Source of the DNA: a virus
Length of the DNA: 38,122 bases
Virus record (IMG/VR): IMGVR_UViG_3300046451_002161
Coordinates: 1-38,122 of that record
Direction: 5' to 3' (one strand)
This document shows positions 5,206 to 26,795 of the stretch, piece after piece. The notes beneath the pieces were generated by a model. That model worked only from the letters and a program-made list of their open reading frames with translations, was not told the DNA's origin and made no database searches. Each line of letters starts with the position of its first letter. Within the stretch, counting starts at the first letter, position 1. The translations under genes and the position numbers were made by a program.

Positions 5206-5385
5206 CTATTTAACTTTCGCAGGGATTTCAAATTTGTTTAAAGCCTCAAGAACTTTTTCAGGTTGGAATCTAATAATCTTACCAACTCGCAAGTATGGTA
5301 TTATTTTTTTCTTTCTGAGGTTTCCTATTGATCTTTCACAGAGTGATAGGAAATCTGCGATTTCTGCTGTAGTATATAATTTCAT
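5206..5385 (-). CDS. HTH_17/MerR-like small DNA-binding protein (excisionase-like)
   Basis: A 59-residue protein in a frame just under the usual cutoff. The sequence YTTAEIADFLSLCERSI then KKKIIPYLRVGKIIRF is the HTH_17 winged-helix pattern used by excisionases and small regulators. ATG 5385 overlaps the nuclease stop as ATGA, and TAG at 5206-5208 directly abuts the erf ATG. It lies about 500 bases downstream of the integrase, so an excisionase role is possible; control of the recombination operon is equally possible. Confidence 0.75.
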   Translation of the reverse strand: MKLYTTAEIADFLSLCERSIGNLRKKKIIPYLRVGKIIRFQPEKVLEALNKFEIPAKVK

Positions 5386-5696
5386 GGTTGTTCTAGTAGT
5401 TGTAGAAAATCTTCAAACTTCATAGTGATCAGATTTTCATGGTTGTTTTTTGTGTGAATTACGCATGGTGGTTTCCCTTTGGAATCCTTGATCGCTTGCG
5501 TAAAAGCTTTATATAAATTCAGTTTTTCGACATGCTTGCATTCGACTGAAAATGGGAAGTCAGGACATGTAATATCTGCATCTCCATTGGCTCCACAAAA
5601 TTGCTGTGAACGATGTGCAGGATATCCATTGTCGGTCAAGATGTGAGCAATCGCCCTTTCATATCTTTGACCTTTTGCTCTAGAATTAATCGGCAT
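5382..5696 (-). CDS. Hjc-like PD-(D/E)XK Holliday junction resolvase/nuclease
   Basis: A 104-residue nuclease. Residues 5-15 (SRAKGQRYERA, with E13), the GDADI segment at 38-42 and VECK at 51-54 give the E-D-ExK active-site layout of Hjc-type resolvases. The small size fits a junction-resolving or DNA-debranching enzyme acting before packaging. The start at 5696 is chosen because GGAGGAACAGCAAG directly precedes it; the longer frame to 5732 overlaps the previous gene. It ends in an ATGA overlap with the HTH gene and belongs to the recombination operon. Exact substrate not known. Confidence 0.75.
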   Translation of the reverse strand: MPINSRAKGQRYERAIAHILTDNGYPAHRSQQFCGANGDADITCPDFPFSVECKHVEKLNLYKAFTQAIKDSKGKPPCVIHTKNNHENLITMKFEDFLQLLEQP

Positions 5697-5898
5697 CTTG
5701 CTGTTCCTCCAAGACATCTCCGGCACAGACATAAATTGCCTCGATTAAATCAGTAAGCGTTCCCTTAAATTCACCACCTGTGGTAAGTGAAATACCTCCA
5801 TCAGAATATACTGACAAATTTAAATTGTTAACCTGAATTGAACTTTTGGTTAACGAGCAGGGTTGAGCTATTTCTTTGAAGTCATTTTTTATGTACAT
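5686..5898 (-). CDS. Hypothetical protein (70 aa), first gene after integrase
   Basis: A 70-residue protein with beta-rich centre (IQVNNLNLSVYSDGGISLTTGG) and an acidic end. Its ATG has a near-perfect AAGGAGGG Shine-Dalgarno sequence and sits 12 bases after the integrase stop, so it may be strongly translated. It overlaps the resolvase gene by 11 bases. No domain is recognised; it heads the recombination/replication run. Confidence 0.6.
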   Translation of the reverse strand: MYIKNDFKEIAQPCSLTKSSIQVNNLNLSVYSDGGISLTTGGEFKGTLTDLIEAIYVCAGDVLEEQQDAD

Positions 5899-5909: not shown

Positions 5910-7079
5910 TTACACCACTAACTCATTTTTATGAGTTGTTAAATCAGAGTAGTATTTTTCACATACTGCTACTGAATTGCGGAGCGTTTTGCTTGCATGA
6001 AATATTCCATGCGTAGATGCCAATCTCGCTCCTAATATTTTCCTCAATCGATGGCATGATTTAACATCAGTTAAACCAAGATCAGTCTTGAGAAATTTTA
6101 TAAATCTTTTGTGGAGTCTTTCACCTCCGTTAATAATTTTTCCTTCCCTTGATTGGAAGTGCAAAAAGACTTGCTGACTTATGCCAACTTTTTCAACATG
6201 TCCTGTTCCCCTTAACTTCGTACCCTTTGTGGCGAACGGAAGAAAAAGAAAATGTTGACCATTAAATATTTTAAAATTGTCAGAATGAACCTGATAGATT
6301 TCTGACTTCCTGAGACCGCAACCAAATGCCAAAAGGTAAATGTCATAAAACACAGGATCAGATTCTTTTTTACCCTGAAAGAATTCTATTATTCTTTCTA
6401 CCTCAGAATCATCAGTCGAAAATGGTTGGGAGACTACACTCTGTGCAATAAAGGAAACAAAATTACCAAAGTGCTTTGTCTCCCAACCCCTCCGTTTGAA
6501 CAACAAAAGATTTTTGCGACTGAATAAAGATTTTATCTGCCTGAGCTTATGAGGAAGATTGTAAATTTCTTCCCATCTCTCCGGCAAGGTTCTCCCCTCA
6601 TCATCCTCGGTTAAAAGGTAATGAGTGGATTCTTGTAAAGAAATCCCTTCCCTCCCACAAAGATCAATAATGTGACTGACATTTTTTTTCCTAGTATCGA
6701 GATTTCCACCGCACCTGTTATTGCAGTCCAAAATCCATGCAAGTAGAAACTCAAGAGTTATTACATTATTTAACTCTTGTATCTTCTTAGTCACTATCCT
6801 CTTTACATCAGACTCTGTAAGTTCGGTTAAGGAGCAATTCAGTGGAATACGAAACTGCTCCTGTTTATGAATAAACTTTAAGGAGACTTTTTGAGAGGAT
6901 AAGTTGACTACTATATCAACTAATTGGGGCAGAAAATTGATTAGGAACTCAAAATTATATATTTGCGAGCCTGAATTTATCTCTTTTTTCCCTTGCAAGA
7001 AAGTGGAGGCGCGGGTGAGAATCGAACTCACGATAGAGGATTTGCAGTCCACGGGTCGCTCTGTATAAATAGGTCTCAT
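5910..7079 (-). CDS. int: Tyrosine recombinase (phage integrase)
   Basis: A 389-codon frame for a tyrosine site-specific recombinase that integrates the phage at a host tRNA-Cys gene. Catalytic candidates: R257 in FGCGLRKSE, K285 in the beta-hairpin, H343 and R346 in CHRLRK, and Y376/Y377 in CEKYYS; the usual LGH histidine is replaced (LRNS). The first 26 codons are the tRNA-derived attP read in frame, and ATG 7079 is the only methionine codon in the whole frame. The folded protein probably begins near residue 40, so GTG or TTG starts inside or after attP are possible. No good Shine-Dalgarno sequence precedes 7079. Confidence 0.88.
   Translation of the reverse strand: MRPIYTERPVDCKSSIVSSILTRASTFLQGKKEINSGSQIYNFEFLINFLPQLVDIVVNLSSQKVSLKFIHKQEQFRIPLNCSLTELTESDVKRIVTKKIQELNNVITLEFLLAWILDCNNRCGGNLDTRKKNVSHIIDLCGREGISLQESTHYLLTEDDEGRTLPERWEEIYNLPHKLRQIKSLFSRKNLLLFKRRGWETKHFGNFVSFIAQSVVSQPFSTDDSEVERIIEFFQGKKESDPVFYDIYLLAFGCGLRKSEIYQVHSDNFKIFNGQHFLFLPFATKGTKLRGTGHVEKVGISQQVFLHFQSREGKIINGGERLHKRFIKFLKTDLGLTDVKSCHRLRKILGARLASTHGIFHASKTLRNSVAVCEKYYSDLTTHKNELVV
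7004..7063 (-). other. attP core: 3' part of tRNA-Cys(GCA)
   Basis: On the minus strand 7050-7004 reads as the 3' half of a cysteine tRNA: anticodon GCA at 7045-7043 in loop CTGCAAA, a perfect T stem (GTGAG/CTCAC) around TTCGATT, an acceptor strand ending CGCGCC, the tRNA-Cys discriminator T, then CCA. Weaker D-arm-like similarity reaches 7063. No 5' acceptor strand precedes it, so this is not a complete tRNA gene. One mismatch in the anticodon stem suggests identity with the host starts near 7050. Phages that integrate into tRNA genes carry exactly such a 3' fragment. Confidence 0.85.
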
Positions 7080-7099
7080 GCTTGTATAGTTAAATAGGG

Positions 7100-7381
7100 T
7101 TAATTTGATTGGGTCAAGTTCTTTTTAATATTTACTTTTTTATCTTTAGCTGAATAATATTTGTCGTAAAAATCTGCTAGATCGAATGCCTCATCCCAAT
7201 CATCAAAGGAATTTATAACTACCTTACAGAGACCACTCCAAGGATTTATTCCTTCCTTTCTGCCTGAAAGAATAATAAGATTTTCCTGCTCAATAAAGAC
7301 CAATTCTTTTTTGTCCGCAATCTTTTGAATTAATTTCCTCTTATGAGAAACCAATTCCCCCTGTGTGTTATATTCGTTCAT
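7100..7381 (-). CDS. Hypothetical protein (93 aa)
   Basis: A 93-residue protein, basic N-terminus, then WSGLCKVVINSFDDWDEAFDLAD, and a Lys-rich end. ATG 7381 overlaps the previous stop as ATGA. It is the last accessory gene before the integrase. No family recognised; it could be an anti-host or superinfection factor like many phage genes at such a place, but nothing visible proves it. Confidence 0.5.
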   Translation of the reverse strand: MNEYNTQGELVSHKRKLIQKIADKKELVFIEQENLIILSGRKEGINPWSGLCKVVINSFDDWDEAFDLADFYDKYYSAKDKKVNIKKNLTQSN

Positions 7382-24660: not shown

Positions 24661-25773
24661 TCATCTCGCTAAAAGGACATCGTTTAATCTCGACCCCACC
24701 GCATAAAATGAAGTGTCGATGTATAAATCATTTCCATTCGTTAAAACAGGGTGGGTGTAAAAAGTCCGATAGTCCTGTCCGATTTCTTCCGCCACTTCCC
24801 ACTTGGCAGACCTATTGCCCACCCATCCAATGCTCGTACCATCAAGCTTGAGCAACTTTGCAGAGACCTCATTTGAGACGGAAAAGCTTAGGGTTTCAAT
24901 TTTGAAAGGTTGTCCTTCAATGATTTCGTGACCATTTGCCAAGGTCATGGTCACAAGGGAAACAGCTAAGGGTCGGTCTTCCTCCGCATAGTTGTAGTGG
25001 GTCGAGTGACCATTGTTTGGGGATGTGGGCAATGCGAAATTAGGTAGTGGGCTATAAATTATCTGCCTTTTTTGAAAATGAATTTCGTTGGTCGATGAGT
25101 AATGGCGAATCCGAAACCAATCACCATTTACGCAGGTGGTTTTGTTGTCGATGAATGGAGTATAAACATCGACATTACCACCACCAATATTTACGAGATA
25201 CGGATCATCCACCTTAAAGTCAGAGTCCGCATAAACCAACCCAATTTTGACAGAATTTGTTGCGTGAGCGATCTGAAACTGAACATACCCATTTGAATTT
25301 CCCTCGATGAAATTTGTAGATGATGCACCTGCATTGTACCCATTTGACCCACTAATTTTCTCAAGCCCACCATTGCCATTAACTTGGACTGAGCCAACAC
25401 TCGCCACTCCATAAAAAACTGAGCTAGAATAAATCGCCTCAGTTGCCCAAATTACAACACTCGATGTGTTGAGAAATTTGTATTGAAAATTGTTGGTTGA
25501 TGAGGGTAATTTTTCAATAGTTAGACTTTCTCCAACTACCGAAGTTCCTCCGTTTGTCCAAATCTTTGTAACCACAACTACATCACCTATGATGGGCGAA
25601 AGATTTATCTCGGTCAGATTAGTCCATGTAACAGGAGCTATCGAAAAATTTCCTGTCGGTGGTGGTTGTTGCCCACCTAGATTAACAATCGCAGTTTCGG
25701 CACTAGACATACGAATGCCTAGATTCTTAATTTCAGAACCTATTTTCGTACCAATCTGCGCGAGAATCGACAT
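24661..25773 (-). CDS. Tail fibre / adhesin protein (370 aa)
   Basis: A 370-residue beta-rich protein. The first 35 residues (MSILAQIGTKIGSEIKNLGI ... LG) resemble the first residues of the preceding fibre gene, suggesting a shared particle anchor. After a PPPTG linker comes a Ser/Thr/Asn-rich region typical of receptor-binding or lectin-like folds. ATG 25773 shares its A with the upstream TGA (TGATG); a TTG three bases earlier is less likely. It is probably the variable end of the adsorption apparatus. Confidence 0.65.
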   Translation of the reverse strand: MSILAQIGTKIGSEIKNLGIRMSSAETAIVNLGGQQPPPTGNFSIAPVTWTNLTEINLSPIIGDVVVVTKIWTNGGTSVVGESLTIEKLPSSTNNFQYKFLNTSSVVIWATEAIYSSSVFYGVASVGSVQVNGNGGLEKISGSNGYNAGASSTNFIEGNSNGYVQFQIAHATNSVKIGLVYADSDFKVDDPYLVNIGGGNVDVYTPFIDNKTTCVNGDWFRIRHYSSTNEIHFQKRQIIYSPLPNFALPTSPNNGHSTHYNYAEEDRPLAVSLVTMTLANGHEIIEGQPFKIETLSFSVSNEVSAKLLKLDGTSIGWVGNRSAKWEVAEEIGQDYRTFYTHPVLTNGNDLYIDTSFYAVGSRLNDVLLAR

Positions 25774-26795
25774 CAACTATTGGCAGTATTAAATGCAGAC
25801 TCAAAAGTTGCATAATCTCCAACCGAAATATTATTAATTTTCAATCCATCCCCACTTGGAACTTTGACAGAACCACTTACTAAAATGTCCTTCACCTTGA
25901 TGTCCGCGTCTGCTGATCCAAGACCAAATTTCCAAATCGATTGCCCTGAGTTGTCATCCCAAATTATAGATGCCTTGTCTGTATTTACTGCGCTAGTGGT
26001 TACAAAACTAACCTGCAAAGCCCCCTCGGTAGTAGTAGGAAATGCGTCAGTTCCGTTTTGAGAAATCGAAGTTAATTTGAAACCTTTCGTATCACTCACT
26101 TGAGTCAGAGAAGACAATTGGGTAACATCAGATGGAAGTTCGTATACATCAGGCTCAAGAACTGATCCTTGTCCCCCATCAAATAAGTCTTGCCATCTTT
26201 GGGTATTATTTATCGCATAATAAGTAATTGTTCCGTAATCTAAGTCTCTAAAATATTTACCTCGAAAAGCTGATTGTATTGTATTACTAAAAGGATAGAA
26301 AATTACGCTATCTGCTGTCCCTGCTGTCCCTGTGTTTAAAAGTTCAGGTTCACATTCAACTTTAATCTCAGTTGAGCTAGGAGTAAGAGTTGCAGTAGAC
26401 AACCCTGATGAACCTAGACCACGATTAACCTGAATACCTGATGTCTGAGCATTTTCAGAACCATCCGATTTTAAGTTAACCTCAATAATATTATCCTTAA
26501 CATTTAAAGTTTGGGTATTAATTGTAGTGGTTGTGCCATTGACAACCAAGTCTCCAATTTCTGCACGGGTAGCTTTTAAGTCTGAAAATGCATTAGTACC
26601 ATCTACCAAATTAGCAATCGATATTCTTGTCTCACCAAGCGAAACTTTTGTTGCGTAGGGTGAGAAATCAATTGTATTTACAACATTACCTAACGATACT
26701 TTTGTCGCGTAAAGATTCCCCAAACTTACTCTTAGGGATGAAAATTCACCCCCAACTTTTTCACCAATTCTACCTAAGATATCTGTTGCACTCAT
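25773..26795 (-). CDS. Tail fibre protein (340 aa)
   Basis: A 340-residue fibre protein. The N-terminal anchor (MSATDILGRIGEKVGGEF) is followed by three short repeats (SLGN/YATKVSLG) and then a module (LVVNGTTTTINTQTLNVKDN) that is widespread in fibres of aquatic tailed phages. The rest is beta-rich, Ser/Thr/Asp-rich. It overlaps the following fibre gene by one base and shares its anchor motif, so both probably attach to the same tail site. Confidence 0.7.
   Translation of the reverse strand: MSATDILGRIGEKVGGEFSSLRVSLGNLYATKVSLGNVVNTIDFSPYATKVSLGETRISIANLVDGTNAFSDLKATRAEIGDLVVNGTTTTINTQTLNVKDNIIEVNLKSDGSENAQTSGIQVNRGLGSSGLSTATLTPSSTEIKVECEPELLNTGTAGTADSVIFYPFSNTIQSAFRGKYFRDLDYGTITYYAINNTQRWQDLFDGGQGSVLEPDVYELPSDVTQLSSLTQVSDTKGFKLTSISQNGTDAFPTTTEGALQVSFVTTSAVNTDKASIIWDDNSGQSIWKFGLGSADADIKVKDILVSGSVKVPSGDGLKINNISVGDYATFESAFNTANS

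Follow-up and report, generated by a model that had tools for sequence, protein, structure and literature searches.

Integrases that carry the phage attachment site (attP) inside their own gene are known as SSV-type (type I or 'suicidal') integrases, found in SSV1/SSV2, pTN3 and pT26-2, and a 2021 review describes self-disrupting recombinases as exclusively archaeal (PMC8371274). A different arrangement is found in ICEKp1, ICEclc and ICEEc1, where the integrase gene (int) switches between a tRNA promoter in the integrated state and a promoter at the end of the element in the circle; this switch is transcriptional and comes with a structured int 5'-UTR (PMC13023037). In mycobacteriophage BPs, attP is part of the repressor gene, and the repressor is shortened at its C-terminus by integration (PMC4557955). 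In the literature that we searched, mostly outside subscription papers, no bacterial phage is described in which the start of int is parted off by attP.

In this article we analyze an IMG/VR virus contig of 38,122 bases, referred to below as the window, in which attP lies within the coding sequence of int, the arrangement by which SSV-type suicidal integrases are recognized. The nearest known kinds are these integrases together with the tRNA/circle promoter switching of ICEs. As in the SSV-type genes, integration would part the 5' end of int from the remainder. In contrast to them, the host here appears to be bacterial, and only the promoter, the start codon and ~10 codons would be cut off while the folded protein stays whole; SSV-type genes are split into intN and intC, which flank the integrated element, whereas the joints described here are virtual ones. 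The likeness to the SSV, pTN3 and pT26-2 integrases is one of layout, the similarity in sequence being that of a generic Pfam family. As with int of ICEKp1, ICEclc and ICEEc1, int here is predicted to come under the host tRNA promoter in the integrated state, and a putative element-end promoter would drive it in the circle, which would favour integration; unlike in the ICEs, the start codon would go too, and the reading frame runs through the tRNA sequence. As in BPs, attP is inside an ORF whose product would be altered by integration, but here the gene is int and it is the 5' end that would be removed. The layout is firm, and from it we infer a switch: int is probably 'self-decapitating', i.e., integration would strip it of its promoter and AUG, the amount of Int would fall sharply, and lysogeny would be favoured.

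Results

The coordinates of the features discussed are collected in Table 1. The original observation that ATG 7079 is the sole Met codon in the 389 codons of int was confirmed on the ORF. Internal Met frequency is 0.20% in int versus 2.12% in the neighbouring ORFs. We considered Met depletion as a peculiarity of int and dropped it: another protein of this phage (340 aa; window 25773-26795, minus strand) is also Met-free after its start, the integrases of two relatives (L017, L081) hold four Met each, and out-of-frame ATGs are common.

Table 1. Features of the int region in the window
Feature	Position	Strand	Remarks
int, tyrosine recombinase ORF	5910..7079	-	389 codons; start is the sole Met codon
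ATG start codon of int	7077..7079	-	across attP from the remainder of int
Putative int promoter, TTGACC-N17-TTTAAC	7089..7117	-	ends 9 nt before ATG; motif-based
attP core, tRNA-Cys(GCA) 3' half	7004..7049	-	int codons 11-26; match to Opitutales tRNA-Cys pattern
GTG, codon 17, within core	7029..7031	-	candidate non-ATG start surviving integration; not conserved in family
TTG, codon 28, just past core	6996..6998	-	start candidate without SD (duplex energy +1.9); not conserved
Variable linker of int, codons 27-37	6969..7001	-	predicted disordered; unalignable among members
Start of folded part of int: beta-rich arm-DNA-binding-like domain, residues ~38-80	6840..6968	-	AlphaFold2 strands 38-80

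By the catalytic-domain test, the window int and its relatives are tyrosine recombinases: PF00589 (Phage_integrase) matches 15 of 15 aligned members at E<=1 (best 6e-6; the window int, at E 0.0029, is under Pfam's curated cut-off), and R257, K285, H343, R346 and Y376/Y377 (R..K..HxxR..Y) are invariant in the integrase alignment. Residue 368 (window ~5976-5978, minus strand) is Asn in the clade (LRNS) and His in the outgroup L145 (LRHS); it is apparently the second catalytic His/Trp position and, if the alignment is correct, bears on activity. AlphaFold2, run on the alignment, gives residues 1-36 a pLDDT below 50 and predicts that a beta-rich domain begins at ~38. The stretch crossing attP is therefore probably a variable, disordered tail, and the domain that follows fits an arm-DNA-binding domain; PF12167 (Arm-DNA-bind_2) is weakly matched in one member of the integrase set. 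No close relative of int was found among isolated phages. Two ORFs past int, the window encodes a putative PDDEXK endonuclease (5382-5732, minus strand; PF24608, E 1e-12), and a similar protein comes after int in L081 too.

The 3' half of tRNA-Cys is inside int, as had been noted, but the span is narrower than the codons ~5-26 first given: it runs from the GAC of the anticodon arm through CCA, i.e., from 7049 down to 7004. ARAGORN reports no complete tRNA in the window. Codons 10, 17 and 28 had been named as GTG or TTG candidates for a start that would be left after integration. All three codons exist, but codon 10 (GTG, 7052-7050) is just outside the shared core, in phage sequence, and would be exchanged too, mostly for GAG or GGG in host tRNAs.

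Relatives were gathered from IMG/VR by protein and alignment searches and by matching the tRNA core at the DNA level, and 18 carry this core next to int. A start codon (16 ATG and, at the ATG's position in L081, one GTG) stands 26-39 nt ahead of the core in 17 of these relatives, and the frame is open through the core into int. Besides this start-to-core distance, the length of the core (45 or 46 nt) and the distance from the core to the TRKK motif (269-365 nt) vary, and yet the sum of the three parts is a multiple of three in every in-frame relative, although the parts alone shift the frame. For example, L013 and L015 both have a tail of 279 nt, and their cores of 45 and 46 nt are balanced by pre-core lengths of 27 and 38 nt. 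There are 15 distinct length combinations in frame and one out of frame, which gives P ~8e-7 if they are independent (p = 1/3 each); the sequences are related and the true significance is lower. By this count, the maintenance of the int frame through the core exceeds chance. The core is read as GAC-TGC-AAA in most members and as ACT-GCA-AAT in four (L015, L016, L018, L019), while the third frame, which holds a stop, is avoided in all. The relatives provide a natural example of selection for an uninterrupted frame across a tRNA gene that is read in two frames. In the first 30 codons past the core, third positions account for 10/18, 6/11 and 12/26 of the differences in three pairs of equal length, consistent with the bias expected if this segment is translated.

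The sole exception among the relatives, L020, is frameshifted by one extra base ahead of the core. In L020 (5930-6040) this base adjoins the core at ACCGAGGGACTGC, a sequence similar to the stem of the host tRNA.

Two other integrase genes show the ordinary order, with attP before the ATG. In the outgroup L145 (35% identity), an attP-like fragment, which by eye resembles the 3' half of a tRNA-Lys and which matches the Rfam tRNA family at E 0.083, is followed by a purine-rich SD and, ~120 nt later, by the ATG, and the arm domain forms the N-terminus of the protein. L075, which the searches for relatives of the window int did not recover, has the same tRNA-Cys core with an ATG ~160 nt past it. 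Because of these layouts the extension of int through attP looks derived in the clade, and the outgroup suggests an origin independent of the SSV-type genes.

TTGAC stands 38-45 nt upstream of the start codon in 18 of 18 sequences tested, and most of these also have a -10-like hexamer. The family motif is TTGAC-N16/18-TATAAC-like, and the hexamer ends 9-17 nt before the int start; a stricter generic promoter scan did not list the TTGACC-N17-TTTAAC of the window. SD sequences are absent at the int starts, with a median duplex energy of +1.9 kcal/mol versus -1.7 in 73 other same-strand ORFs (Mann-Whitney p 9e-7). Transcription from sigma-70 promoters starts ~7 nt past the -10 element. Given the position of the hexamer, the int leader would consequently be ~1-10 nt long, which suggests an mRNA that is leaderless or nearly so and made only in the circular form. 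The promoter-like motif would be lost along with the start codon upon integration.

The strongest alternative, which we consider a serious possibility though somewhat short of an even chance, is a switch between two starts: the upstream AUG would be used in the circle and an SD-led non-AUG (or AUG) start past the core in the prophage, and the two forms of Int, both active, would differ in the disordered N-terminus, with a modest change in level. The predicted disorder of residues 1-36 agrees with this, as does the fact that excision by a prophage normally requires Int. Moreover, an SD-like sequence precedes a TTG, GTG or ATG 6-18 codons past the core in L009, L010/L011, L014, L019 and L069, and anti-SD complementarity in the 45 nt past the core is in slight excess (KS p 0.017). 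Against it, neither the position nor the codon of any candidate is conserved, a convincing one is missing in the window, L005, L006, L007, L012 and L013, and most members have no internal AUG. A hidden ribosome binding site past the core was rejected, the enrichment being marginal.

A narrow tRNA core pattern had its sole match among 84,980 genomes in an Opitutales MAG. Closely similar tRNA-Cys 3' halves occur in 74 of 372 Opitutales genomes, where both phage variable-loop lengths are found, and the cores of L017, L019 and L069 match the host tRNA in L021 without a difference across 47 nt. The hosts are likely Opitutales (Verrucomicrobiota). Prophage relatives, in which attL and attR could be read, were not found: one scan of the 84,980 genomes and the search of the 372 Opitutales genomes gave nothing close to an integrated copy of the phage. 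In one Opitutales genome, a 22.6-kb element lies between two tRNA-Cys 3' halves (L067, L068; G259 contig 67, 13095-35780). It was rejected as a relative, since the tyrosine recombinase beside its far tRNA-Cys copy is unrelated; it shows that the tRNA-Cys attB and core are used. Two Opitutales contigs (L021 and G153 contig 135) end exactly 3 nt past the CCA of tRNA-Cys, which is how an assembly might look that had branched at an occupied integration site. We searched for a partner contig that would make the contig ends of G001 and G153 a polymorphic site, and found none.

The 5' halves of host tRNA-Cys were joined to the phage cores to form virtual attL sequences, for which 61 complete host tRNA-Cys genes were available. 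Given the orientation of attP and the host tRNA, int would lie directly behind the restored tRNA and in the same direction, in support of what had been proposed. Most virtual phage-host joints have no ATG, and an in-frame TAG within the tRNA is frequent. In the GAC frame, which most of these phages use, GGTAGCC-type tRNAs have this TAG at tRNA nucleotides 8-10, and no start lies between TAG and core save for a core-edge GTG in two hosts; 20 of 20 sampled Opitutales with a 7-nt variable loop in tRNA-Cys are of this type. In the ACT frame the tRNA itself provides just a GTG, in the D-arm, which L015, L016, L018 and L019 could use. An in-frame upstream ATG is present in 16 of the 61 host genes, all with a 6-nt variable loop, and most of these ATGs overlap tRNA nucleotide 1, exactly 30 nt before the core. 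An ATG before TRKK is host-supplied in the virtual joints of one tRNA type; otherwise it occurs in L010/L011 (one) and, later in the sequence, in L016, L017 and L081. The window core is of the 6-nt variable-loop type, so that its host could be of the ATG-supplying type or not. The proposal that the start would be exchanged on integration thus stands insofar as the start lies beyond attP, conserved in nearly all relatives, but the ATG is not always lost; likewise, the expectation that only GTG or TTG would be left in the prophage agrees with most joints but not with the roughly one quarter of hosts that offer an ATG, and in many hosts the tRNA brings a TAG into the int frame.

These joints also bear on a second alternative, namely that the host supplies the start. 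Where tRNA-Cys reading GGTCGCC is preceded by AT, the ATG and nine codons of the phage would be swapped for another ATG and nine codons, and an intact prophage Int would be driven by the tRNA promoter. The distance of the host ATGs from the core, mostly the same 30 nt as in the window, L005, L006, L009 and L010, is in its favour. We regard it as unlikely in view of the TAG in every host with the 7-nt loop; in addition, tRNA processing would part the ATG from int, and the tRNA is structured. Finally, that the extension through attP is unused, the upstream frame being incidental and Int starting past the core both in the circle and in the prophage, is very improbable, for while protein-level conservation is lacking in the N-terminal 45 codons and L020 lacks a continuous frame, compensating indels hold the frame in 17 of 18 relatives, a promoter-like motif stands 9-17 nt ahead of the start codon, the frame is still open in L081 with its GTG in place of ATG, and third positions are biased past the core.

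Discussion

The reading that we prefer is the loss of promoter and start codon by integration. In the circular phage DNA, the promoter adjoining attP would yield an mRNA with (almost) no leader, in which the int start is the first AUG, and translation would pass through the tRNA-Cys-derived core into Int. Recombination at the core would shift the promoter and the AUG to attR and join int to the 5' half of the host tRNA-Cys gene at attL. In the prophage, any transcription of int would then come from the tRNA-Cys promoter and give a joint tRNA-int RNA, which normal tRNA 3' maturation would be expected to cut at CCA, leaving only the starts past the core. In most phage-host combinations the prophage int would have no AUG, and weak GTG or TTG starts, rarely an ATG, would be available. 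Int would be made just after infection and its level should drop, to zero or to a low level, through integration itself, an outcome that would favour stable lysogeny. The Int needed for excision could come from residual low-level initiation past the core or, in some hosts, from a host-supplied ATG.

A stricter version is conceivable but in our judgment rather doubtful, namely a clade of bacterial phages with truly self-decapitating integrases, where Int would be made from the leaderless AUG before integration only, none would be made in the prophage, and lysogeny would be irreversible unless a superinfecting relative or a host factor supplies Int.

Conclusions

If the proposed switch is true, self-disrupting integrases would extend to bacteriophages. 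The promoter switch already known from tRNA-integrating elements would gain a translational layer, the loss of the start codon. Integration would become self-limiting through a switch of a single step, which raises the question of how such prophages excise.
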